Shown here: in pieces, positions 7,186-61,368 of the stretch
Layout of the letters: each line of letters begins with the position of its first letter
Numbering within the stretch: the first letter of the stretch is position 1
Source of the DNA: Oscillospiraceae bacterium
Lineage (GTDB): Bacteria > Bacillota > Clostridia > Oscillospirales > QAMX01
DNA length: 64,000 nt
Assembly (NCBI GenBank): GCA_015067675.1
Contig: SVMB01000008.1
Location: forward strand, 1 to 64,000
Reading direction: 5' to 3'
Notes under the pieces: generated by a model
Database searches by the model: none
What the model was told of the DNA's origin: nothing
What the model saw: the letters and a program-made list of their open reading frames with translations, nothing else
Program-made: the position numbers and the translations under genes

Positions 7186-8202
7186 ATGAGCGCCGCCAAG
7201 CAGCTTTTGCCCCAGGTGCCCCGGTACTTCAAAGCAAACCTGCATACCCACAGCACAATCTCCGATGGTCAGCTTTCCCCGCAGGAGGTCAAGCAGCTTT
7301 ACAAGGATCTGGGTTATCAGATTCTTGCCCTTACCGATCACAATATCATTGTCGATCACTCCGACATGACGGAGCCGGATTTTCTCATGCTCACCGGTGT
7401 GGAGGTCAATTACAATCACAAAAACTATCGTCCCGGCTTTGACGGTCCGGTGTATCATTTCAATCTGATCTCGAAAAAACCGGATACACTCTGGATGCCG
7501 GGCAGCGCTCTTCACAGATATCCCGGAGGGCTCGAATACGAAAAGTATATGTACTGCGAGCAGATGGATATGTCCTACAGTTCGCACGGCGCCAATGCCA
7601 TGATCGCAAAAGCCAATGAGATGGGGTTTCTCGTGATGTATAACCATCCCACCTGGTCCTGCAACAGCTATCCGGACTACGCTCCGCTGAAAGGCTTGTG
7701 GGGAATGGAGCTGCGCAACAGCGAATGCTGTATGCTGGGCAATAACGAGAACAACGCCCGGGTCTTTAAGGATCTTTTGAATCTGGGTAATCAGCTCTAT
7801 CCTCTGGGAACGGACGATATGCACAAGCCCAGAGCAGCCGGTCTTTCCTGGATTATGGTTGGCGCACCGCAGCTTTGCTATGACAGTGTCATAACCGCTC
7901 TGGAAAACGGCGATTTCTATATGTCCTGCGGGCCGGAGATTTCCGGACTGTCGATCACCGGCAGCACCTTAAAAATCACCTGCTCTGATGCCCACCATAT
8001 CACCCTGGAAAGTCATGGCCGTTTTGCACGCCGCATGTCTGCCGAAGGCGGACGCTGGATCCGTGAGGCAGAATTCGACTTGACCGGCTTTTTTGCCAAA
8101 GCCGACAGCGAAGATATGTACATCCATCTCACCGTCACCGCACCCGACGGCAGCTATGCCGCTACACGCGCCTACTGCTTAAACGAGCTTAAACAAGAAT
8201 AA
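7186..8202 (+). CDS. PHP domain metal-dependent phosphoesterase-like protein
   Basis: ANLHTHSTISDGQLSPQEV, LTDHNIIVDH, MYNHPTW, LGTDDMH metal-binding motifs; GGGAGGA SD. Confidence 0.8.
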   Translation: MSAAKQLLPQVPRYFKANLHTHSTISDGQLSPQEVKQLYKDLGYQILALTDHNIIVDHSDMTEPDFLMLTGVEVNYNHKNYRPGFDGPVYHFNLISKKPDTLWMPGSALHRYPGGLEYEKYMYCEQMDMSYSSHGANAMIAKANEMGFLVMYNHPTWSCNSYPDYAPLKGLWGMELRNSECCMLGNNENNARVFKDLLNLGNQLYPLGTDDMHKPRAAGLSWIMVGAPQLCYDSVITALENGDFYMSCGPEISGLSITGSTLKITCSDAHHITLESHGRFARRMSAEGGRWIREAEFDLTGFFAKADSEDMYIHLTVTAPDGSYAATRAYCLNELKQE

Positions 8203-18769: not shown

Positions 18770-20911
18770 TTATGCTGCCAGCTCGTAGGAAAACTGGTTT
18801 TCCTCGCAGTATTCATGCATGACGCTGCCTTCCACGACGGTGAACACGGCCTTCGTGCCCAGATCACCGAAGAGCGCGCCTTCGATCGTCTCAAGGCTGG
18901 CAGGCATCGTCAGGCTCTCCAGCGCATCGCAGCCCACGAAGATTGACGCGCCGATGGACTTCACACCCTCGTGTACCGTCAGTTTCCGGAGGGAAGCGCA
19001 ATTGTAGAAGCAGCCCTCGCCCAGAACCGTCAGCGTATCCGGCAGAGTCACGTCCACGAGCGCCTGGCATTCGTAGAACAGGCTTTCCTGCAGCTCGGTT
19101 ACGCCTGCGGGAATCGTGATTTCCTCCAGCGCCGTGCAGAACGCAAAGGTCATGTCGCCAAGCTTTGCAACACTCTCCGGCAGCGTCACCTTCGTGAGGG
19201 AGCTGCATTCGTAGAAAACGCCCTTGCCCAGCTCGGTCACACCTTCCGGCACTTCAAAGGAAGTCAGAGCATTGCAGGCGGTAAAGAAGCCCTCGGGAAT
19301 TGCCGTAATGCCCGTGGGAAGGGTGATGCTTTCCAGTTTTGTGCAGTTGGCGACGCCATAGGCACCAATCTCCGTGATCCCCGCAGGCAGGACGATCTCG
19401 GTCAGGCTTTCGCACTCACGAAAAACGCTGGCGCCCATTTTGGTCACGGTTTCGGGGATTTCAATCGTCTGCAGCACTTTACAGCCCTGGAAAAGACCCT
19501 CAGAAAGCTCGCTCATCGTATCCGGAAGGGTAAGTGACTGCATGGAGGCACAGCCAGCGAAGGTGTAGGGACCAAGCTCGGTGATACCGGCAGGCAGCTC
19601 CACGGTTTTGAGCACGCTGCAGTTTGCAAAGGCATATTCGCCGAGATTTTTCAGGTTTGCAGGCAGCTTTACCTCGCGCAGAGAGGCACAGTCGGCCAGC
19701 ACATGACTGCCCATGGAGGTGATGTTGTCATGGAGTTTGAGTTCAGTGAGGTTTTTACAGCCGTAGAACGCACCGCCGCCCAGCTCCGTCACAGTCTCGG
19801 GCACGATATAGGAATTAAAGCCCAGGCAGCCGTAGAAGAGATTGTCGGGGATACGGGTAATCGCCGCAGGCAGGGTTACGCCGGAAAGGCTCTCGCAGGA
19901 GGCAAATGCTGCGGCGCCCAGTTCCGTCACGCCCTCCGGAAGCTTCATCGCCCGCAGGCTGACGCAATTTTCAAAGGCACCGTCACCGATGGCAGTCACG
20001 GTTTCGGGAAGCTCAATGCTCACAAGGCCCGTGCAGCCGGAAAACATATAAGCCGGCACGGCGGTCATGCCCTTGGGCAGGGTCACTTCGGTCAGTCCCG
20101 CGCAGTCCTGCAGCAAACCGTCGCCGATGCTCACAAGGCTTGCAGGCAGCTCCACCTTGGTCAGTGCGCGGCAGTTGCCAAAGGCCGCTTCACCAACGTG
20201 GGTCAGCTTTGAGGGCAGCAGCAGCGTGGTCATCGCCGTGCAGGTATAAAATGCGCCATCACCGATCTCGGTGAGACTGCCCGGCAGCGACACACTGATG
20301 AGAGAAGTACAGGAACTGAACGCGTCGGCGGAGATACCGGTCAGGTTGCGTGGAAGATTGACCACCGTCACGTCGGTGTTGCCCTGGAAGGCAGTGCTGA
20401 GATACTTGACGCTGGCCGGAACATTGACCGTGCCGCCGGCGCCGTTATACTTGATAAGCACCTGATCGCCCGCGACCACAAACTCGCCATCCTGAAAGTC
20501 AAACCAGGGAGTATAGGCAAAGGCGTGGGAACCGATCCTGGTCACCGTAGCCGGGATGATAACCTCACACAGGGCATCGCAGCCGTCAAAGGCTCGATCC
20601 CCGATAAACGTAACCCCATTGGGGATGGTCACAGACTCGATGGTCGTGTTGACATAGAAGGCCTCGGCACCGATACCGGTAACGGGCTTGCCGTCAAGGG
20701 TTTCGGGGATGACGACTCTGGCTTCTTTTCCCAGATAGGAGGTGATCACTGCGTGATCCTCATACACCTCATAGCCGTACTCTTCGCTCACGGCAGTGCT
20801 CAGCGGCTTTTGTTCTACCACGGGCGCAGGTGCGCTGCCGCAGCCCGCCAGCAGCACCGCAATGAGGCACATGGCAAGGCTGAGCGCTGCGATAGATTTC
20901 AGATTCTTCAT
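18770..20911 (-). CDS. Leucine-rich repeat (BspA/LRR_5 type) lipoprotein
   Basis: Lipobox LLAGCGS; about two dozen 23-aa LRR_5 units such as LPETVTAIGDGAFENCVSLRAMK. Confidence 0.93.
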   Translation of the reverse strand: MKNLKSIAALSLAMCLIAVLLAGCGSAPAPVVEQKPLSTAVSEEYGYEVYEDHAVITSYLGKEARVVIPETLDGKPVTGIGAEAFYVNTTIESVTIPNGVTFIGDRAFDGCDALCEVIIPATVTRIGSHAFAYTPWFDFQDGEFVVAGDQVLIKYNGAGGTVNVPASVKYLSTAFQGNTDVTVVNLPRNLTGISADAFSSCTSLISVSLPGSLTEIGDGAFYTCTAMTTLLLPSKLTHVGEAAFGNCRALTKVELPASLVSIGDGLLQDCAGLTEVTLPKGMTAVPAYMFSGCTGLVSIELPETVTAIGDGAFENCVSLRAMKLPEGVTELGAAAFASCESLSGVTLPAAITRIPDNLFYGCLGFNSYIVPETVTELGGGAFYGCKNLTELKLHDNITSMGSHVLADCASLREVKLPANLKNLGEYAFANCSVLKTVELPAGITELGPYTFAGCASMQSLTLPDTMSELSEGLFQGCKVLQTIEIPETVTKMGASVFRECESLTEIVLPAGITEIGAYGVANCTKLESITLPTGITAIPEGFFTACNALTSFEVPEGVTELGKGVFYECSSLTKVTLPESVAKLGDMTFAFCTALEEITIPAGVTELQESLFYECQALVDVTLPDTLTVLGEGCFYNCASLRKLTVHEGVKSIGASIFVGCDALESLTMPASLETIEGALFGDLGTKAVFTVVEGSVMHEYCEENQFSYELAA

Positions 20912-20994: not shown

Positions 20995-22479
20995 TCAGGC
21001 AATTTTACCGGCCATGTTGTAGCCGAAGGAAGAGATCTGGGCAGTGAAGCCCTCCATACGCTCGGCAACCCAGGCGTTGTACTCCTCGGTGCGCAGGGCT
21101 CCCTCGATAAGCTGGGTGCGAACCTCGGCGTTCTCGCCGACGTAGTAGAGGATGTGGCAGCCGAACTCACTCACGACGATCTCGGCATCGCCGGTCTGGC
21201 GGGCATCGTCATAGAGCCAGTTGTTGACCTCGGTCACAACCTGGTTGCGGGGAACATTGGTATACAGGCCGCCTTCAACCACGGCGGTATCATCGGAATG
21301 CTCGTCGGCCAGAGCGCCAAAGCTCTCGGCAGTCGCCTCACCGGCCTTCCACTGGGCCAGGATTTCCTGAGCCTCGGCCAGAGCCGCAGCCTCGGCCTCG
21401 GCGGTCACGGTGCCATCCTCGCCGGCTTCGGCGGTGATAAGGATATTGCGGAAGTCACGGGAATTGTAGAGGTTGTCCTCACGCTCGATAAACTGAACCA
21501 CGGTGTAGCCGTAGGTCTGCTCAAAGATCTCGGCATCACCGGAGGCACGCTCGGCATCAAAGAGCCAATCGCCGTAGGGAAGGGTGCTGACATTGGCGTA
21601 GGGAGCGTTGTTGGTCCGGGTAGCGGAATCGTCCTCGTAGTAGGACTTGGATTCCTCATCGACGATATCATAGATAACGTCGGCGAAGTTTTCACCGGCA
21701 GCCAGACGGGCGATGATGCTCTCGGCCTCGGCCTTGGCGGCAGCCTTGGCAGCATCAGCGTCCTCACCCTCGGCAGCAGCGCCGTTGATGCTGTAGATGC
21801 TGTAGCTGACATACTCATAGGCATTGGGATCGGCCTGATAAGCAGCGTCAAGCTCCTCGGCGGTGTAGGTCATACCTTCGGCGATCTGGGCAGCATAGGT
21901 CTCGGCGATGAATGCCTTGCGGGTATTGGCCTCGTAGATGGCGGCATTCATGCCGGCGCCGTAGACAGCCTGCAGATAACCGTTCTTGCTGAAGCCATAG
22001 GCCTCGGCGGCGGCATAGGTACCGGAAATAAGACCGGCAAGCTCTTCCTCCTGCTCGGCACTGAGCGTAAAGCCGGCCGCGGCAGCCTCTGCATTGAGCA
22101 TGGAAACGTTCTCGATGTTTGCAACGGTGGATTCCTTGATGTAATCGGCCCAGGTCTGATCCTCGGAGTACTGCTGCTCATCAAGCGGCACGGAGGTATC
22201 AAGAATCATGGACACGTAATCGCCGTAGGTGCTGTAGAGGTTATTGTAAATGGTCTGGTAGGAGCTGTAGTAGTAGAAGTTAAAATCGGCGGGGGTGTAA
22301 GTCTCATCGCCCACGGTGACGGCGTTGGCCATACGGTAGACAGCGCCCGAAGAGAACAGGGCAAGGGGAGTAATGAGAATCAGCACGGCCAGGATAATGG
22401 CAACGGTGATGATCGTCTTTTTGGTCTGGGTACGCTTGGCGGCGGCGCGGCGCGCAGCCTTTTCGGCGGCTTTGCTCAT
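20995..22479 (-). CDS. Membrane-anchored peptidylprolyl isomerase (parvulin/SurA-PrsA-like)
   Basis: N-terminal TM anchor; two parvulin-like segments (FRNILITAEAGEDG..., FGALADEHSDDTAVVEGGLYTNVPRNQVV...). Confidence 0.8.
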   Translation of the reverse strand: MSKAAEKAARRAAAKRTQTKKTIITVAIILAVLILITPLALFSSGAVYRMANAVTVGDETYTPADFNFYYYSSYQTIYNNLYSTYGDYVSMILDTSVPLDEQQYSEDQTWADYIKESTVANIENVSMLNAEAAAAGFTLSAEQEEELAGLISGTYAAAEAYGFSKNGYLQAVYGAGMNAAIYEANTRKAFIAETYAAQIAEGMTYTAEELDAAYQADPNAYEYVSYSIYSINGAAAEGEDADAAKAAAKAEAESIIARLAAGENFADVIYDIVDEESKSYYEDDSATRTNNAPYANVSTLPYGDWLFDAERASGDAEIFEQTYGYTVVQFIEREDNLYNSRDFRNILITAEAGEDGTVTAEAEAAALAEAQEILAQWKAGEATAESFGALADEHSDDTAVVEGGLYTNVPRNQVVTEVNNWLYDDARQTGDAEIVVSEFGCHILYYVGENAEVRTQLIEGALRTEEYNAWVAERMEGFTAQISSFGYNMAGKIA

Positions 22480-23034: not shown

Positions 23035-24198
23035 TTATCCGACGATGACCGTCGCCCGGTAGGCCGCGTCAATGGCCACGGTGCCGGAATCAATCAGAAT
23101 ATCCAGCAGGCGCACGGTTGCGTCCTTCTTCGCCGTCATCAGCGCCTTATATGATGAAAACGCCACATGGTCGCGGTAGAACACGCTGCTCATGGCATTG
23201 ACATCGGCAAACGTGAGCATACCGATCTGCTGCGCTTTCTCAGATGCCTTTGACCAGACAAAATCACCGGCTGCGTCATTATATCCCAGCGCACGCAGCA
23301 AAAACGTCAGATACTGTTCGCGGGTAGCGCTCTGGTCGGAGCCGTACTTGTCTGCACTGATGCCGTTGGTATATCCACGGGCGTAGGCATAGGCCACGTG
23401 GCGGTCTGCCCATGCGGGCACATCCTTGAAGGGATGCTTTGCGGTACTCGCCAGCGCCTCGTCCTCCTCACCCAGCAGACGCACCAGCATCACCAGCGCC
23501 TCAACACGGGTAGCCTCGCGGGTCAGTTCAAATCCTGCATTGGTGCCCTTGAACAATCCCATCTCCCGCAGGGCCTGGGCATACCTGAGATACTGCTCGG
23601 TGTAGACACCCGGTGTCACCGGATCAGAGGGCTTTTCGACGATGCCGCCGGAAGAAGCAACGCCCAGCAGCTTTGCACTGCCCGAGACCGTGATCACGGC
23701 ATTACCCGCTGATGCGCGCAGGCCGCAACCTCCTGTATCGGCAATGATGTAGAGATGCCCCGGCACCAGCACCGTACCGTCGGCACAGCCGACACCCTCG
23801 CTTGCGTCCACCAGCACAGTTCCCGCTGCGGCGACAACCTCAGCCGAGCCGCTGACGAGGGTAAACTTGGTTCCGAGTGCACCTGTGACGACGGAACCGG
23901 ATGAAAGCGTGTAGCTGCCGCTTGTCAGGGTACGCATGGCGCGGGCGTTCATGGTATCCAGCCAGAGCTCCGAGCCGATCTGCACACGCAGGCTGCCGGT
24001 GGAGAAGTTTTTCTCAAGGGTCTCCTCAAGCGCCGCGAAGGCGCTTTCCAGCATCTGCTGCGTCTGGCTCATGATGTAGGGCTGGTAGGTATCTGTCAGA
24101 TAGCTGCGGGTAACCACAGGGTCCGCCGCAGTGGTCAGCACGCCCGAGAGCAGGATCGCCGTCATCAGCAGTGCCATGAATCGAAGTTTCAGTTTCAT
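23035..24198 (-). CDS. Secreted SLH-domain surface protein
   Basis: Signal peptide MKLKLRFMALLMTAILLSGVLTTAA; SLH-like LTREATRVEALVMLVRLLGE and SATREQYLTFLLRALGYND. Confidence 0.8.
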   Translation of the reverse strand: MKLKLRFMALLMTAILLSGVLTTAADPVVTRSYLTDTYQPYIMSQTQQMLESAFAALEETLEKNFSTGSLRVQIGSELWLDTMNARAMRTLTSGSYTLSSGSVVTGALGTKFTLVSGSAEVVAAAGTVLVDASEGVGCADGTVLVPGHLYIIADTGGCGLRASAGNAVITVSGSAKLLGVASSGGIVEKPSDPVTPGVYTEQYLRYAQALREMGLFKGTNAGFELTREATRVEALVMLVRLLGEEDEALASTAKHPFKDVPAWADRHVAYAYARGYTNGISADKYGSDQSATREQYLTFLLRALGYNDAAGDFVWSKASEKAQQIGMLTFADVNAMSSVFYRDHVAFSSYKALMTAKKDATVRLLDILIDSGTVAIDAAYRATVIVG

Positions 24199-24208
24199 GA
24201 ATGCTCCT

Positions 24209-24907
24209 TTACCTGTTACCGAGAGGGGCAAAGACCCGCATCGCCAGCCGTTCGGACAGCGGCATACTCTCCCTTGCCTCCTGCTGGGCAGGAATGCGGC
24301 AGCACAGCGTCATCAGGCTGTCCGCCAGATGGACATTCTCCACCGCCGTACGGGATCCTTCGGCCTGAATATCCACCGATGTAAAGTTCCAGATGCCCCG
24401 CACCCCGCAGCGCATCAGGATATCGGCCGTACTCTGTGCCGCGCTGCCCGGACAGGTCAGCACCGCCACCGCAGGATGAAATTCCATGCAGAACTGCTCC
24501 AGCATCGCTGCGTCCAGCACGGTAACATCGCCGATCACGCGGCCGATTTTTTCCGGATCTGTGTCAAAACACGCAGCAATGCTGACACCGCAGCGTGAAA
24601 ATACGCCGTCGGTAAACAGCGACTGCGCCATACTGCCCATGCCGACGATCACGCCGCGGCAGCCTGCCTGCAGATTCAGGATCTCTGCCAGTCGGTCACG
24701 CAGCGTTTCGGTGTTATAGCCGTAGCCCTGCTGACCAAAGCCGCCGAAGCATGAAAAATCCTGACGCACCTGCGAAGCGGTGAATCCCAGCGCCTGCGCC
24801 AGTTCATTGGAGGATACGCGTGAGATTCCCTGACTGCACAGTGACTGTACATATCGGTAATAGCGGGGCAACCTGCGGATAACAGCGGATGATACTTTTG
24901 CGGCCAT
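24209..24907 (-). CDS. rex: Redox-sensing transcriptional repressor Rex
   Basis: VIRRLPRYYRYVQSL...ISSNELAQALGFTASQVRQDFSCFGGFGQQGYGYN. Confidence 0.95.
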   Translation of the reverse strand: MAAKVSSAVIRRLPRYYRYVQSLCSQGISRVSSNELAQALGFTASQVRQDFSCFGGFGQQGYGYNTETLRDRLAEILNLQAGCRGVIVGMGSMAQSLFTDGVFSRCGVSIAACFDTDPEKIGRVIGDVTVLDAAMLEQFCMEFHPAVAVLTCPGSAAQSTADILMRCGVRGIWNFTSVDIQAEGSRTAVENVHLADSLMTLCCRIPAQQEARESMPLSERLAMRVFAPLGNR

Positions 24908-52790: not shown

Positions 52791-52820
52791 TATGTATGTT
52801 TTGGGGTGTATGGGCTGCAA

Positions 52821-53926
52821 TCAGGCGTCGTAACGCTCACAGAAGCGGTGAATGATTGCCGCGACCTGCGCACGGCTTGTTCCGATTTCCGGCATCAGCA
52901 AACCGTCGCTGCCCTGCAGCAGTCCCTGGCTACAGCCCACTGCATAGCCTCCACAGCATAGGGCGAAATCTTCGCCCTATCGCGGAACTCATCTCCCAGC
53001 ACAGGAGACGGGCCGGTCACAAAACCCTTTCTGACCGCATAACGGTAGAGAATCGTCACCAGCTGTTCGCGGGTGACATCATGATTGGGGGCAAATCGTT
53101 TCGCACTCATGCCTGTGACAAATCCGAGCGCACTGGACCACCGCACGGCCTCTGAATACCAGGTCTCCTGCGAAACGTCCTCGTACTGCATCAGGTAATT
53201 GACCACCGGCTTTTTTTCAAGCCGCCACAGCACCGTTACCAGCATCGCACGGGACATGGGGGTATCCGGCTCAAAGGTATCGTCCGACATACCCTGGAAC
53301 AGACCCCGCTGCACAACAAAACCAACATCATCATGGAACCAGTCCTGCGCAGACATGTCCCCATAGGGATTGACCCACGGTTCGGCTTCCGGTTTGGGAT
53401 CAGGGGCAGGAGCCGGATCGGAGTCAGGCGTGGGATCGGGAGTGGGCACCGGATCGGGGTCAGGCGTGGGATCAGGAGTGGGAACCGGATCGAGGTCAGG
53501 CGTGGGATCAGGAGTGGGCACCGGATCGGGGTCAGGCGTGGGATCAGGAGTGGGCACCGGATCGGGGTCAGGCGTGGGATCAGGAGTGGGCGCCGGATCG
53601 GGGTCGGGCGTGGGATCGGGAGTGGGCGCCTGACCGGAAGTGATCACGTAGGTTCCGCCTGCGGCAACTGTAAAGGTAATATAGCCGTCCGCAAGGGTTG
53701 AAGCAATAACCGTGCCGCCGAAAGTCACGTACGCGTTTTCGAAGGTACATGGAATGCTCAGAGAGGGTTTCTGCTCGATCAAAACATCCGATTCCTGCAC
53801 CGTCACGCGGATCTCGGTATCGGTCTGCTCAATCTCCAGCGACGCATCGAAGTCGGCCAGCGCCGCTGTGCACAGAAGCATAGAAAGCGCAAGAATCAGG
53901 GACAGAATACGTGAAAATCTTGTCAT
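52821..53926 (-). pseudogene. SLH-domain surface protein with Pro/Asp-rich linker; frameshifted near the 3' end (track ORF stops at 52895)
   Basis: Frame 1 ends ...EAMQWAVARDCCRAATVC*; a one-base shift at about 52921-52930 restores GLLQGSDGLLMPEIGTSRAQVAAIIHRFCERYDA* ending at 52821. Confidence 0.75.
53413..53628. repeat. Six tandem 36-bp units encoding (TPDPTPDPDPVP)-type linker
   Basis: ccggatcggggtcaggcgtgggatcaggagtgggca-type unit starts at 53413, 53449, 53485, 53521, 53557, 53593. Confidence 0.93.
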
Positions 53927-53937
53927 GTGGCACCTCC

Positions 53938-56900
53938 CTAGTTTATCGTCCAGTAGCCCAGCACTTTACCGTTTTTGTCCTCAACGGAGACGCTGAGACC
54001 ATCATTCATCGTGACGGCATCCTCACTGAACTTGTACTGCGATGCAAGCTCATTGAGCATGGGGACGTTTTTATTGTCTGCCAGCAACTTGCGGTTTTCA
54101 TCATCGTCACGGGGCTGCACTCTGCCGTTGACCACCTCGCAGTTGGGGCTGCCCCAGCGGGGATCGGTGATGACGCGGCCGGACCCGCGCACGATATTGT
54201 TAGCCTTGCGGTACACAATCTCGCCATCCTTGGTTTCACCGAAGAAGTTGCCGAGGAACCAGTAGGTACCCTCGGGGACGTTCACGTCAAAGTCGTGCTG
54301 ATTGTCGATGAAATCGCAGCCGCCGATGCGGAAGTAATAGGGTGCAGTGTTTTGCCGCAGCGAAACCAATATGATAGCGGTTGTATTGCCCTCAAATACA
54401 GAATGACCGAAGTCTGCACTATCCATATTTTCAAGATAAGCACCAACTGCGTTGTTTTTGAAATAGCACAAATCCTTCGGAATAATGGAACCGCTTCTGG
54501 TGCTGCGCATTCCGTACTCATAGTTTTCAAAGCTGCACCGATGGGCAGTGGTGTTTCCGCCGTCTGCAAGAATGCCGCAGGTAAAGGTATCGTTTTCATA
54601 GGTCACCTTATACTGTTCATTCGCCACAAAGCTGATGTTCTGAATGTCATTAAGGTGATTTTTTACCACGATTCCGCCGGAGACTGTGGTGCGGTTTCCG
54701 CTTGCATCCTCGGTTCCGATCAGTTTGATTCCGTTGTATTGGGCATAGATGATACCTTCATAGGTTACCGGCGGCAGCTTCAGATCGACATTGTGGCTCA
54801 TCATGTTTGCCGGATTTTTGCACCACTGATAAGCTTCCACCTTGTCCGGATCATTGGCCGCATAATATCTGTCAAAAGCCTCAGAGCTTGCCAGAATTGC
54901 GTTGAGTTTTTCTGTTGTATCAATCGGGCCGTATCCATCAACATTTTTGGACAGATCCAGCTCAAAACTCTGCACGGCACCATGTTTTTTGAAGGTGGAA
55001 TACAGTTGGAAGACCATCGGATCCTGATCCGGCAGATCCAGCGTGATTTTGGTCTGAATGACGGCAAATCCGTATGAACCTGCGCGGAATTCAACTGCCG
55101 GGACATTGACTCCGCCGCGTTCAAACGTGGAATCGGTGATGGACAGGAAGCATTCATCAGAACCGTCGGCATTGGTAAAAGTACCGATTTCACATTCCAG
55201 TCCGGTGACATACTGGTACATATCAAACGCTTCGGTCACGCTGGCTATGCCGTAATCCTGCATGATGCCAACAAACTCCGTCCAGACGCGTTCATTGGTA
55301 CTGCCGTCGGGATTGATGTTTCCGTCCGATTCGCCGGTTCCCGGGAGACGGAGATTCAGAACTTCACCGAGCCCGGAATGCCACAGTTTAGCAAGAGAAA
55401 TGGCGTACTTTTTGCCCTCGTACTCAAAGGTCGGCATATCCGTTACGGCGTAGGCAGGCTCCGAGACATCAAAGCTCAGGTTCTGCCCCCCGTTCCCGAA
55501 GTTTACAAAGAACACAAACTCATATCGTCCGCTGAACTTTTGCGAATCAATCGTAAATTTGAAGGAACCCGGTGCTCCCGTCTGATCCATCGAAAGCCAT
55601 GCAGGCAGAGAAGGATTGGATGCTTCATCTGCGCCACTGCCGTAGATCACCGTCGTTGTTGTGCTGCCTTTCAGACTATCGATCACACCTACACTGATCG
55701 TCTGGATGATCTGGGGATTTTTGCATGACAGCCAGAGGCTCTCTGACTGCCCATCCATCGTGAACACCCTGCCGTTGTCCACATACGCCGAGGCAGAGGG
55801 AGTCGCGGCAGTGTAAAGGCCGACTTCGGGAAGTACAGGATTCAGCGCAAGTTTGTAGGTTTTGCCGCCGGTCGTGTAGACAAACTGTCCCGCGCCCATT
55901 GCGTTGAGCTTCCAGACACCCTTCGTCTGAGTCTTTTCCAGCGTGGAGGCATTCTTTTCCTGAACAAGGGTGATTCCATCGTCGATACGCTGATAGTTTC
56001 CATCCGCATCAGAGAGATAGAAGCAGACATACCTTGCTCCGATCGGATAATCATACACTTTCTCTTTCTGTCGGTTGGGATTCTCCTGCGGTACACCGTA
56101 CATCATATCCGCGATGCTGTATACCAGCCCCGGGCGGTTATCTTTGACACGGATACCGCGGTTATTATTCCAATTATCTGCGTCAATCCTCACATTCAGG
56201 TCAAACTCGGCAGGGAATTCGTCTTTCAGCTTAATCTTTACACCATAGACAGGTTTTTCCTCCGTACCAAAGTTTTTAAACTCACAGCTATCCACATATT
56301 CCTCACCGTGCTCAATCTTGTGGGTTGGATTCACAAGCTGATCACGTGTCAGAAGCAGATAGAAAACACCGCTATTGTCTTCCGTTACTCGGAATTCTGT
56401 AAGAAGTGTATCAACCGATACTGTCGGAGCACTGTAGAAGCCGATAGCAGGCAGCTCTGATCTCACCGGAATCCGGTATTCCTTTTCGCCGTCTTTGTAT
56501 ACAAGCTGCGCCTCGCCGATGCCGTTTGCATACAGATGGCACATCTGATCGTAACTTGTGCCGTTGTGTTCCAGCGTCTCGATGGAGAATACATTGCCGG
56601 ACTGTTCCAGCGTGACCTCGGAAGCCGGGATCGTTCTCGTGTTCTCGCCGTCCTGAAGCTCCAGCTTCAGCCGCAGGCTGCCGTTCGGTGTCAGGTTCAC
56701 CCGATGATCGTAAGGCTCCACCGGAGTCGGCACATTATTGATAATATTCACACGCTTATACAGCAGCTGCGGACGGGAATTCGTGACGTGGATATCCGTT
56801 CCGGCACATCCGTCTGTATACGCCCATTCAACAATCAACTCAAAATTCTCCGGCAGATCGCCATCTTTGTCCAGCGTGATTTTGGCACCGTACAATGGAG

Positions 56901-57540
56901 CAGCTTCTGTCCCGTAGTTTGTTACCTCCGAGAGGGTGACCGCATCTGAAAAAACAGGTTCGTCGTTATGAATATAAAATGCGTTCAGTTCGCCATTGAA
57001 CTCAGGCGCATGGGCCAGCAGAACATATAACTCTTTATTCAGGTCTGTAAGCGTGAATTGTTCGATATATGTTTCAGTCGAAGTCCCGCTGTAGAAACCG
57101 ATCTCCGGCAGCAGTGAACGTAGTTTAACGGAGTATTCTACGCGTTCATCGCCCTCACCAACCACATACACAATCTGCGCCTCTCCAACGCCGCTTGCCC
57201 GCAGCAGCGTGTAACCCGCAAAGGCCGAATTTTCATTGGCCGACTCGATGGTGAAAACGCTGTTATCCGGTGTCAGCGTGACATTAAAAGCTGAGAGCGG
57301 CTGGTAGGCTACTCCGTCATAATACTCAAGCATTACCCACCAGTCTTCTCCAAGCGGCAATTCCATTTCTTTTTGGTGGTTTCCCGCACTGTAGGCACCT
57401 TTTTCGTTGTCATAATTCACATTGCTTATGTACAGCCCCACCGGAGGTTTTTCACCGTCTTCCGTCTGCGCCCCATCCGTCGCATAAACCGGCACTGCGA
57501 GCAGCAGCAGTGCCATAAGCAGCAGGATCGTTTTCTTCAT
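53938..57540 (-). CDS. Large secreted repeat protein with beta-helix-like C-terminus
   Basis: Signal peptide MKKTILLLMALLLLAVPVYA; threefold internal repeat at LPEIGFYSG/LPAIGFYSA/LPEVGLYTA; C-terminal CDFIDNQHDF...GNFFGETK...GSGRVITDPRW. Confidence 0.8.
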   Translation of the reverse strand: MKKTILLLMALLLLAVPVYATDGAQTEDGEKPPVGLYISNVNYDNEKGAYSAGNHQKEMELPLGEDWWVMLEYYDGVAYQPLSAFNVTLTPDNSVFTIESANENSAFAGYTLLRASGVGEAQIVYVVGEGDERVEYSVKLRSLLPEIGFYSGTSTETYIEQFTLTDLNKELYVLLAHAPEFNGELNAFYIHNDEPVFSDAVTLSEVTNYGTEAAPLYGAKITLDKDGDLPENFELIVEWAYTDGCAGTDIHVTNSRPQLLYKRVNIINNVPTPVEPYDHRVNLTPNGSLRLKLELQDGENTRTIPASEVTLEQSGNVFSIETLEHNGTSYDQMCHLYANGIGEAQLVYKDGEKEYRIPVRSELPAIGFYSAPTVSVDTLLTEFRVTEDNSGVFYLLLTRDQLVNPTHKIEHGEEYVDSCEFKNFGTEEKPVYGVKIKLKDEFPAEFDLNVRIDADNWNNNRGIRVKDNRPGLVYSIADMMYGVPQENPNRQKEKVYDYPIGARYVCFYLSDADGNYQRIDDGITLVQEKNASTLEKTQTKGVWKLNAMGAGQFVYTTGGKTYKLALNPVLPEVGLYTAATPSASAYVDNGRVFTMDGQSESLWLSCKNPQIIQTISVGVIDSLKGSTTTTVIYGSGADEASNPSLPAWLSMDQTGAPGSFKFTIDSQKFSGRYEFVFFVNFGNGGQNLSFDVSEPAYAVTDMPTFEYEGKKYAISLAKLWHSGLGEVLNLRLPGTGESDGNINPDGSTNERVWTEFVGIMQDYGIASVTEAFDMYQYVTGLECEIGTFTNADGSDECFLSITDSTFERGGVNVPAVEFRAGSYGFAVIQTKITLDLPDQDPMVFQLYSTFKKHGAVQSFELDLSKNVDGYGPIDTTEKLNAILASSEAFDRYYAANDPDKVEAYQWCKNPANMMSHNVDLKLPPVTYEGIIYAQYNGIKLIGTEDASGNRTTVSGGIVVKNHLNDIQNISFVANEQYKVTYENDTFTCGILADGGNTTAHRCSFENYEYGMRSTRSGSIIPKDLCYFKNNAVGAYLENMDSADFGHSVFEGNTTAIILVSLRQNTAPYYFRIGGCDFIDNQHDFDVNVPEGTYWFLGNFFGETKDGEIVYRKANNIVRGSGRVITDPRWGSPNCEVVNGRVQPRDDDENRKLLADNKNVPMLNELASQYKFSEDAVTMNDGLSVSVEDKNGKVLGYWTIN

Positions 57541-57577
57541 CTTTATCCGCCCTTTCAATCACGTTATGTTTATCACC

Positions 57578-57606
57578 ATTATAAATCACTCCGCGATACA
57601 AAACAA
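57578..57606 (-). promoter_or_regulatory. Putative sigma-A promoter for the 1200-aa secreted protein
   Basis: Minus strand TTGTTT-N17-TATAAT. Confidence 0.6.
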
Positions 57607-57639
57607 TATGCTGTCTGCATACCTTCCGTTTCCGACACA

Positions 57640-60600
57640 TCAATTGAAATTCCAGATGCCCAGAATCGTTTCGTACTCGTCTTCCATGGTGATCTCCAAC
57701 GCATCTTTTTCGTCAAAAGTGGCTGCATCGATCTTGTACTGTGACGCGGAACCGTTGAGCATCGCAATTGCGTCTGCATCTACCGTCAACGTCATACCTA
57801 TCCGTTCCTCAAGACTCTTCTCCCAGACCCGGTCGCCGCGGATGGTGATCCAGTTGTTGCGCACGCGCCAAGAGGGATCGGTGATAACGCGGCCGGGGCC
57901 ATTGACAATGGTGTTTGCCTTGCGCTGCTGTACCTCGCGGATATCCAATTCATCAAGACCCCGGTTTGGATCATGGCTTTCCTTCGTTCTGCCAAAGAAG
58001 TTGCCAATAAACCAGAACGTGCTGCCTTTGACGGTCTCCGCGCGGAAATCATGCTGGTTATTGATAAAGTCGCAGCCATAGACACGGTAATCGTAAGGCT
58101 GGATATAACTGGGCAGTGCGTCAATCCAGATGGCAATATCGTTGTCCTCAAAAACCGAATAGCGGACTTCTGCGTTGGCGTTGCCCTGATTCTTGATTCC
58201 ACTGTTATAATAGACTGCTACGCCGTTGCCCTTGAAGTAATTGTTGTAATCGGGATGCGAATAGCCGTTTTTCTCGTTGTAGATTGCGTAACTAAAGCCT
58301 TCAAAGCTGCAAAAACCGATATCACATTCGCCGACATCGGAGTAGATGCCGACAGTGACGGCTTCGCCGTCGATGACGCGCGTATAGTCCTTATTTTCCA
58401 CAAAGCGGATATGGTAAATTCGTCCCAGATCACCGCGGTTTGTGATTTTTCCCTCACTGATGCCGTTTCCGATGAAGATGCCGCCTGAAATGGTGGTACG
58501 GCTGACGGTTTCAAGGATAGTACCGGACTCATCTTTGCGCGTAATCGTGGTACCGTCAATGAGCAGGTTCAGTGCAGAACTTGTGTGGCTCTCGATGATG
58601 CCGGTGTAAGTCACCGCCGGGAGCTTAAGCATGATGCGGTTGGATGACACATTGGGATTGGTCTTAAAGTATTCGTAGGCGGCGTACCCCTCAGGATTCC
58701 GCTCCTTGAAGTAGGCAAGAAGGGCGTCATCACTGGCAAGAATTGCATTGATTTCCTCGACGGTATCCACTGGATTTTCTCCCTGACCCAGATCGAGCAC
58801 AAACTGCTGGTCTCCCAGCCAGTGAATGTTGACCCAGCTGCTGACAGTAAACGGCGCCATTTTGGGCAGCTCAATAGTAATATCCGCCCACAGCAGCGCC
58901 TCACCCTGTCCATCGGCAACACCACGGACACCGGGAACAATGGCATTACCTCGATCGACATTGATATCACTCAGATCAAGCCAGCATTCTCCCGTTGAGC
59001 CGTCTGCATTGCGAAACCTTTTGATGCTGTACTGAACGTTTTTGATGTACTTGTACATTTCCACTGCTTCCCGTTCGGTCGCAGTGTTATAGTTTTCCAT
59101 AATACCGACGATACGGGTCATTTCAAAGCCATTCTCAATGGCTCCGCTTCCGCCGGTACCCGAACCGGGAGTGTGCATGAACAGACCACCGGATTCATAG
59201 ATGCCCGCGATAGCCACCGCATAGGTCTTGCCGTCATGGGTAAAGGTCGGAACCTCAGCCTTCATATTCATAATGTCCCGGATCTGGAAGTCAGAACCTG
59301 AGAAATCACGGTTTCCGCTGTACGCCCGGAAGTTGATGCCCCAAAATCCAACAAAGGACTTGTCCACGGTTACCTTGACGTTTCCTGTTCCGCTGTAATT
59401 AGCCAAATCAAAGCTGAGCCATGATGGCAGAGACGCCGTATCGGCACCACTTCCATAAAACGTAATCGTCTTTGTATCTGTTCCGCTGCTGTAATCCGTC
59501 AGTTCCACATCAATCCGGTCAATACTGCCGACGTTCTCCGCCGAAATCAGGTAGAAACTGACCGGTTCGTTGATGATGCTGAGATGATTGCTCTTGCTCA
59601 GTAGCGTACTTGCAGACGCCGTTGACTGCGTATATGCACCAAACGGCGGCAGAACGCTGTTCAGCTGCAGGGTGTAAGTCTTTCCATTGTAAGTATACTG
59701 CACCGCTGCCTGACCTACATCACTGACCTTCAGCGTCCAGATGCCCGGGGCAGCATGTTTCGTCAGCGAAAAAGCCCCTGCGTTTCCCTGCACGATTGTC
59801 ACACCGTCGTCAATTCGGGTATAGCCGCCGTTTTCATCCGTCATGTAAAAACAAATATTATACGAGCCCATTGTATTGGAAAAGCTCGACTGCTTGAAAT
59901 TACCCGTATTCTCCACCGGTCCGGCGTTTGACCAGCCAGCCATGCTGTACACAAGATTCGTACGTCGGCTCACAATTTCGATATCAGCCGAGCGGTTCTT
60001 CTCTCCGCCGCCGGTATATTCCACATTCAGCATGAAGCGATCCGGCGCATTGTCTTTCAATGTGAATTTGACCTCCGCACCATAGACCGGCTCGTTCTCC
60101 GAACCGTAATTCATCGGGTTGCAGGTCACGTTTGCAAATTCGCTGGAACAGGATATCTCGGGCTGAGAAGAGAAATGCAGATCATAGGGCAGAACGTAAA
60201 GGGTAACTTCTTCGTCATCCTTCACGATGTACTGCGTCAGTAAGCTTTCTTTGGTCACTTCCCGGCTGCTGTAAAAGCCAAGCTTGGGCAGTGTGACATT
60301 TACACTGACGGTATAAGTCTTGTTGTTATGGGTGTAGCTGACAGTCGCAGAGCCGATACTGTCAGCATACAGCCTGTAATAACCCTCATAGATCTGACCA
60401 TTTGCCTCCCATCTTTCAAAGGAAAACACAGAAGAATCCGAAACTGTAACGTCGTTTTCCGACAATTGAACTGTCTTTTCGCCGTCAAAGAAACAGAGTG
60501 CAGCCTGAGCCCTGTCTCCTACAGACAAAGTCCATGCGCTCTCCGCATGATCACTCAGAGAAGGGATTTTGTTCTTATCCGAATTGACTCTGCGCCATTC

Positions 60601-61368
60601 CAGCCGAGGCTGAAGGTTTTTCACCTTCATAATCGTACCCTGACGGTATGTGTACTCTCCAACCACAGTTTCAAACGTGATCACTGCTTCACCGCTCATC
60701 TGAGGAGCAATGGTAATCTCTGCATAGCAGGTACCGGCTGTTCCTGCTTTCATTTCTGCCGTTACGAGGTGATTATCACTCGAGACGGTTGTTGCAGACG
60801 TGAAATCGGCTGCGTTCTGCGGCAGTACATAAACGGTGACAGATTCATCTCCGTTAATGCTGACTTCCGTGAGGAAATTCTCTTTCGTCGCGGAAGGAGA
60901 ACTGTAAATACCCACATCCGGCAGCGTTACGCTGACAGGAAGAGTATAGGTTACTCCGTTCCCTTCACCCATAGCCGCATAGGAAAGCGCTGAGCCTTCA
61001 AAACTGCTGGCATGTAGAATATAATAGCCGGGATGGGATGCACTGTTGTACGGTTCCAGGCTCAGATCTCTATCGACGGAAACACCGTCTTTCAACGCAA
61101 CAAAATCGTTTCCGTCATAATAATACAGCACAATCTGGCGTTCACTGCCGCACCAAACCTCCACAGCTTCGCTGCGGTACTGCTCATCTTCGTCAATTAC
61201 AGGCTGCCATACGCCGTCCACGTTCTGCATACTATACTGTTTCCAGTACAGTCCAGGCACAAACGTTGCATTTTCTCCCGAAATGTCCGGCTCCGTCACC
61301 TGGGTCGCATATACAGGCAGCGCAAGTATCAAAAGGGCTGCCACCAGCATAATAATCGTCTTTTTCAT
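57640..61368 (-). CDS. Large secreted repeat protein, paralog of 53938-57540
   Basis: Signal peptide MKKTIIMLVAALLILALPVYA; LPDVGIYSS/LPKLGFYSS/LPPFGAYTQ repeats; C-terminal CDFINNQHDF...GNFFGRTK...GPGRVITDPSW. Confidence 0.8.
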   Translation of the reverse strand: MKKTIIMLVAALLILALPVYATQVTEPDISGENATFVPGLYWKQYSMQNVDGVWQPVIDEDEQYRSEAVEVWCGSERQIVLYYYDGNDFVALKDGVSVDRDLSLEPYNSASHPGYYILHASSFEGSALSYAAMGEGNGVTYTLPVSVTLPDVGIYSSPSATKENFLTEVSINGDESVTVYVLPQNAADFTSATTVSSDNHLVTAEMKAGTAGTCYAEITIAPQMSGEAVITFETVVGEYTYRQGTIMKVKNLQPRLEWRRVNSDKNKIPSLSDHAESAWTLSVGDRAQAALCFFDGEKTVQLSENDVTVSDSSVFSFERWEANGQIYEGYYRLYADSIGSATVSYTHNNKTYTVSVNVTLPKLGFYSSREVTKESLLTQYIVKDDEEVTLYVLPYDLHFSSQPEISCSSEFANVTCNPMNYGSENEPVYGAEVKFTLKDNAPDRFMLNVEYTGGGEKNRSADIEIVSRRTNLVYSMAGWSNAGPVENTGNFKQSSFSNTMGSYNICFYMTDENGGYTRIDDGVTIVQGNAGAFSLTKHAAPGIWTLKVSDVGQAAVQYTYNGKTYTLQLNSVLPPFGAYTQSTASASTLLSKSNHLSIINEPVSFYLISAENVGSIDRIDVELTDYSSGTDTKTITFYGSGADTASLPSWLSFDLANYSGTGNVKVTVDKSFVGFWGINFRAYSGNRDFSGSDFQIRDIMNMKAEVPTFTHDGKTYAVAIAGIYESGGLFMHTPGSGTGGSGAIENGFEMTRIVGIMENYNTATEREAVEMYKYIKNVQYSIKRFRNADGSTGECWLDLSDINVDRGNAIVPGVRGVADGQGEALLWADITIELPKMAPFTVSSWVNIHWLGDQQFVLDLGQGENPVDTVEEINAILASDDALLAYFKERNPEGYAAYEYFKTNPNVSSNRIMLKLPAVTYTGIIESHTSSALNLLIDGTTITRKDESGTILETVSRTTISGGIFIGNGISEGKITNRGDLGRIYHIRFVENKDYTRVIDGEAVTVGIYSDVGECDIGFCSFEGFSYAIYNEKNGYSHPDYNNYFKGNGVAVYYNSGIKNQGNANAEVRYSVFEDNDIAIWIDALPSYIQPYDYRVYGCDFINNQHDFRAETVKGSTFWFIGNFFGRTKESHDPNRGLDELDIREVQQRKANTIVNGPGRVITDPSWRVRNNWITIRGDRVWEKSLEERIGMTLTVDADAIAMLNGSASQYKIDAATFDEKDALEITMEDEYETILGIWNFN

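Follow-up and report, generated by a model that had tools for sequence, protein, structure and literature searches.

Cellulosomal anchoring scaffoldins hold dockerin proteins by means of SLH and cohesin domains. ChiW of Paenibacillus sp. FPU-7 is a surface protein with SLH repeats, a right-handed beta-helix (CBM-54) and Ig-like domains, and degradation activity of the CBM-54 beta-helix was undetectable (PMC5132251). ChiW shows that SLH repeats, a non-degrading beta-helix and Ig-like domains can work jointly on a surface (PMC5132251). For SpaA of Paenibacillus alvei, binding of the SLH trimer to secondary cell-wall polymer is established (PMC6081394).

The window analysed here, a stretch of 64,000 nucleotides from an Oscillospiraceae bacterium, carries three neighbouring genes, P0002, P0001 and P0003, which probably encode the three parts of a single cell-surface display structure. 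ChiW is a single polypeptide with two GH-18 catalytic domains, whereas P0001-P0003 have no enzyme domain and the anchor is a separate protein (PMC5132251). ChiW was absent from the matches in a PDB sequence search of P0001. SpaA and P0003 have SLH repeats of one Pfam family, with wall-polymer binding presumed for P0003; SpaA holds three repeats inside an S-layer protein, whereas in P0003, a small anchor protein, two repeats are intact and the large clients are separate (PMC6081394). Scaffoldins and, as proposed here, P0003 share a way of working, the non-covalent display of separate large proteins by a protein with SLH. They differ in the pairing, which is cohesin-dockerin in the scaffoldins and would be FDA with the end of a beta-helix in P0003, where 'FDA' is the name given here to the ~80-aa N-terminal domain of P0003. 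Pfam gave no cohesin or dockerin match in P0001-P0003, which are thus not classed as cellulosomal. A literature search returned no description of an FDA-SLH protein paired with a beta-helix protein.

P0002 (57640..61368, minus strand) encodes a secreted protein of 1242 amino acids with a signal peptide, MKKTIIMLVAALLILALPVYA, as read from the sequence, followed by three Ig-like modules, a pre-helix region, a beta-helix and a C-terminal cap. Its paralogue P0001 (53938..57540, minus strand) has the same architecture in 1200 amino acids. Coordinates and strand were verified for both open reading frames. The initial annotation gave more than 1200 amino acids for each, which is right for P0002 but not for P0001, which has exactly 1200 when both lengths are counted from the methionine of MKKTI. 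It also described the two as secreted paralogues, in agreement with the full-length alignment (33% identity, E = 2e-169) and with the MKKTI...PVYA start of both, a typical signal peptide. The motif LP..G.Y[ST], proposed as a hallmark of three successive modules, occurs exactly three times per protein, at residues 144, 363 and 570 of P0001 and at 149, 360 and 573 of P0002, with a spacing of 207 to 219 residues. The shared SLPxWLSxD segment was found once per protein, in module 3, and the C-terminal motifs CDFI(D/N)NQHDF, GNFFG, GRVITDPxW and LGxWxxN are present in both. P0001 and P0002 are the sole copies in the 3.67-Mb window genome, which is 73% complete. By sequence, the description as an unknown family is correct: neither protein has a match in Pfam, NCBIfam or the PDB sequences. 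Despite this, the folds are recognisable in predicted models, as Ig-like modules and a right-handed beta-helix. This beta-helix, the FDA domain, a link to kinase loci and a frameshift in the SLH gene are new relative to the initial annotation.

The modules of P0002 lie on the minus strand at 60610..61194 (module 1, LPDVGIYS), 59977..60561 (module 2, LPKLGFYS) and 59338..59922 (module 3, LPPFGAYT, including SLPSWLSFD). Those of P0001, on the same strand, lie at 56797..57381 (module 1, LPEIGFYS), 56140..56724 (module 2, LPAIGFYS) and 55519..56103 (module 3, LPEVGLYT, including SLPAWLSMD). A module profile built from sequences of other genomes only, with no window sequence, recovered all three modules in each protein (E = 1.6e-42 for P0001 and 5e-42 for P0002), and none of 200 composition-matched shuffles appeared among the matches listed. 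The AlphaFold and Foldseek check proposed earlier was carried out on P0002 module 2 (a construct of 222 amino acids, 59911-60576), with ten natural copies as input. The model is all beta with a mean pLDDT of 81, and it has 611 PDB matches at E <= 0.001, headed by tandem Ig-like proteins with low whole-chain TM-scores of about 0.3. The module is therefore read as a pair of Ig-like domains, a similarity at fold level only, and the modelled structure has the tandem beta-sandwich domains of Ig-like surface repeats. The S-layer protein SbsC (4uj7/5ftx) and Leptospira LigA (8gyr), both tandem Ig-like surface proteins, are among the Foldseek matches, at TM-scores of about 0.3 and with no sequence relation to the module. 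In two other genomes (G001 and G378) the module is joined directly to SLH repeats. A distant relative in G336 (L018, 159-4649) has four modules and a C-terminal dockerin in place of SLH or beta-helix. Another locus (L044, 5061-13558) encodes a protein of 2319 amino acids that has segments resembling the modules and repeats resembling SLH; it adjoins a gene for a subtilisin-like protease.

The C-terminal unit of P0001 was modelled with AlphaFold (construct 53941-55458 of the window). The unit has a helical linker (DTxExxNAILAS), which is followed by high-confidence coils of short strands. Short regular strands run from about construct residue 220 to 445, most blocks having a pLDDT of 80-97, and this predicted structure, together with the Foldseek neighbours, is that of a right-handed beta-helix. 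Its approximate limits are 54124..54801 (minus strand) in P0001 and, by homology to the P0001 model, 57865..58644 (minus strand) in P0002, where it spans CDFINNQHDF, GNFFG and GRVITDPSW. Neither protein is matched by Pfam Beta_helix (PF13229); a more distant zinc-ribbon relative scores 21.8 with this family, just under the cut-off of 25.9.

The Foldseek neighbours are beta-helices of GH28, PL6, adenovirus LH3 and E1B, and tailspikes. Since the GH28 and PL6 beta-helix enzymes are among the top matches, P0001 and P0002 could be carbohydrate-active enzymes, a polysaccharide lyase or hydrolase with a catalytic beta-helix, but no PDB match of the unit reaches E 0.001 and no enzyme family of Pfam or NCBIfam is matched. 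The positions conserved among nine family members are Asn, Gly, aromatic, hydrophobic and small residues. Just two acids are well conserved, D874 and D1188, and both are located outside the coils of the helix; no cluster of catalytic acids or charged residues is conserved, in line with the earlier remark that no enzyme motif was recognised. On this basis P0001 and P0002 do not qualify as beta-helix lyases or hydrolases of the PL6 and GH28 kind, which have conserved catalytic residues in the helix groove. We consider an enzymatic role improbable and rejected it, because there is no conserved catalytic cluster.

P0003 (52895..53926, minus strand) starts 11 bp past the P0001 stop, so that the SLH gene is indeed downstream of the pair on the same strand, and this 11-bp gap contains a ribosome-binding sequence. 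The protein has 343 amino acids: a signal peptide, the FDA domain (53615..53854, minus strand; DFDASLEIE...GGTYVIT, located with a profile made from fused relatives only), a Pro-rich linker and two in-frame SLH repeats (53246..53365 and 53060..53185, minus strand). A third SLH repeat (52820..52921, minus strand) is out of frame, and the other frame reads GLLQGSDGLLMPEIGTSRAQVAAIIHRF. The SLH partner gene in G072 has a frameshift too, in the linker (L019, about 8040-8180). Judged from the sequences, the frameshifts in P0003 and in the G072 partner may be assembly errors or real mutations; the out-of-frame third repeat may weaken the anchoring by P0003, or be an assembly error. P0001 and P0002 contain no SLH repeats by Pfam, and so do not themselves carry the usual three repeats of Pfam SLH proteins. 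The window genome (G000) is rich in SLH proteins, with 42 SLH repeat matches in about twenty reading frames.

No terminator-like site was found between P0002, P0001 and P0003. A hairpin with an 18-bp stem followed by T5 is found after P0003 (52748..52791, minus strand; -34.8 kcal/mol, z -8.66), at the end of the probable operon. A terminator-like hairpin with a 12-bp stem lies between rnc and P0002 (61431..61459, minus strand); in the scan overall such sites were no more frequent than in shuffles. The gap between P0002 and P0001 is 100 bp and holds a TATAAT-like hexamer, and there may therefore be an internal promoter, with separate transcription of P0002 and P0001. Elsewhere in the window the same strand has more genes of surface type, which encode a BspA-type LRR protein of 713 amino acids (18770-20911), a PpiC/SurA-like foldase (20995-22479) and an SLH protein of 398 amino acids (23035-24231).

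In several relatives the parts are fused. The beta-helix unit, FDA and SLH form one polypeptide in two contigs of G641 (contig 4, 1332 aa; contig 22, 1046 aa), in G599 (1341 aa) and in a Clostridia sequence from goat caecum (L127, 1166 aa), and in these four FDA follows the end of the beta-helix and precedes a linker and the SLH repeats. At a fifth locus, in G487, beta-helix and FDA are fused, and the stretch covered shows no SLH. This gene (Oscillospiraceae SIG469; L082, 1-3634, and L084, 2871-6011) apparently continues over a contig end, with a 127-bp exact overlap, and then has two beta-helix-FDA units.

The profile made from fused FDA domains only matches P0003 with 76.8 bits (E = 1.9e-22). 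In L115, G072 and G423 it detects separate partners, with E-values from 5e-20 to 1.5e-11; the top score of 2000 shuffles was 10.2 bits. FDA partners encoded by a gene of their own also occur in G610 and G478. SLH is not universal in the partners: the reading frame of the L115 partner contained none, and the G423 partner matched no Pfam family, SLH included. FDA was present at 11 of the 11 secreted beta-helix loci, fused in five and in the next gene in six; these loci come from beta-helix profiles and one DNA pattern, which is no full census, and some also fed the profiles. Among the 394 order genomes sampled, strong FDA matches occur in just two, the window genome and G072, and these are the only two that have the secreted beta-helix unit. 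The remaining matches are weak (E at least 2.2e-6); those in four genomes were inspected and discarded as unrelated proteins sharing a GxYTI-type strand. The hand-made DNA pattern gave 44 matches, five of them true relatives, all metagenome-assembled Clostridia or Oscillospiraceae (sheep colon and goat caecum included). A phage origin is unsupported: a separate scan of viral contigs, whose patterns were weak, gave no relative.

With about twenty other SLH-coding frames in the genome, an SLH gene nearby is unremarkable, and P0001 and P0002 might be ordinary secreted repeat proteins next to an unrelated gene. However, the only FDA in the window genome is that of P0003, the other SLH proteins there having none, and FDA tracks the beta-helix protein across genomes, so that we regard chance neighbourhood as highly unlikely. 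Because FDA is fused to the beta-helix or follows it directly at every one of these loci, display of P0001 and P0002 through P0003 is the most likely arrangement on the sequence evidence. The fusions in relatives and the conserved gene order support the earlier suggestion that the pair and the SLH protein belong to one surface system.

In the proposed display structure, P0001 and P0002 would be exported, non-enzymatic rods, with the three Ig-like modules as stalk and the right-handed beta-helix at the C-terminal end. Fusion and gene order suggest that FDA of P0003 packs on the beta-helix at its C-terminal end; the SLH repeats of P0003 would, in this organism, bind the secondary cell-wall polymer. 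The contact is presumably non-covalent, since the parts are separate polypeptides here and in five other genomes. Most likely, the structure would serve to present an extended surface outside the cell that binds a glycan or some other surface ligand. The stoichiometry is a point against, as P0003 has one FDA and there are two large partners.

The beta-helix unit is also the outer part of zinc-ribbon, single-pass membrane proteins of ~425 aa in family f14, where the beta-helix profile matches 37 of 251 genomes, mostly in frames of about this length. A Ser/Thr kinase gene was found within flanks of up to 1.5 kb in 25 of 30 zinc-ribbon-type loci, and most have a divergent HTH gene. At the loci L049-L078, L047 and L085-L088 a divergent HTH gene, a Ser/Thr kinase gene and a gene for the zinc-ribbon-TM-beta-helix protein form a conserved cassette, in which the last of the three is often present as tandem copies. 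The gene order in both G610 and G478 is kinase, zinc-ribbon-TM-beta-helix, secreted beta-helix and FDA-SLH, and in G487 a kinase and a zinc-ribbon-TM protein are encoded upstream of the fused beta-helix gene.

The gene order in these three relatives suggests a surface-sensing system. The secreted beta-helix proteins could belong to a signalling system as its surface half, together with a zinc-ribbon-TM-beta-helix receptor that detects either these proteins or their ligand and works with the kinase inside; the frequent kinase and HTH neighbours fit such a role. Yet most zinc-ribbon/kinase loci have no linked secreted partner in the short flanks examined. Moreover, no zinc-ribbon-TM-beta-helix protein was detected in the 73% complete window genome, where the kinases are distant relatives only (5e-16). 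The organism would then retain the surface half only, or have unlinked signalling genes. We regard this signalling role as possible but doubtful. Equally tentative is the extension to an undescribed surface-sensing system of Clostridia, made up of divergent HTH regulator, kinase, zinc-ribbon receptor, secreted beta-helix and FDA-SLH, in which the receptor and the anchored protein would recognise each other, or one ligand in common, through homologous beta-helices.

With the proposed display structure, three gene families that were annotated as SLH at most receive a function that can be tested, and FDA is defined as a new domain of docking type, for which the predicted partner is clear. The comparison also presents one surface machine that occurs in both fused and split forms. 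The kinase-linked membrane beta-helix points to gut Clostridia possibly monitoring their own surface or surroundings.
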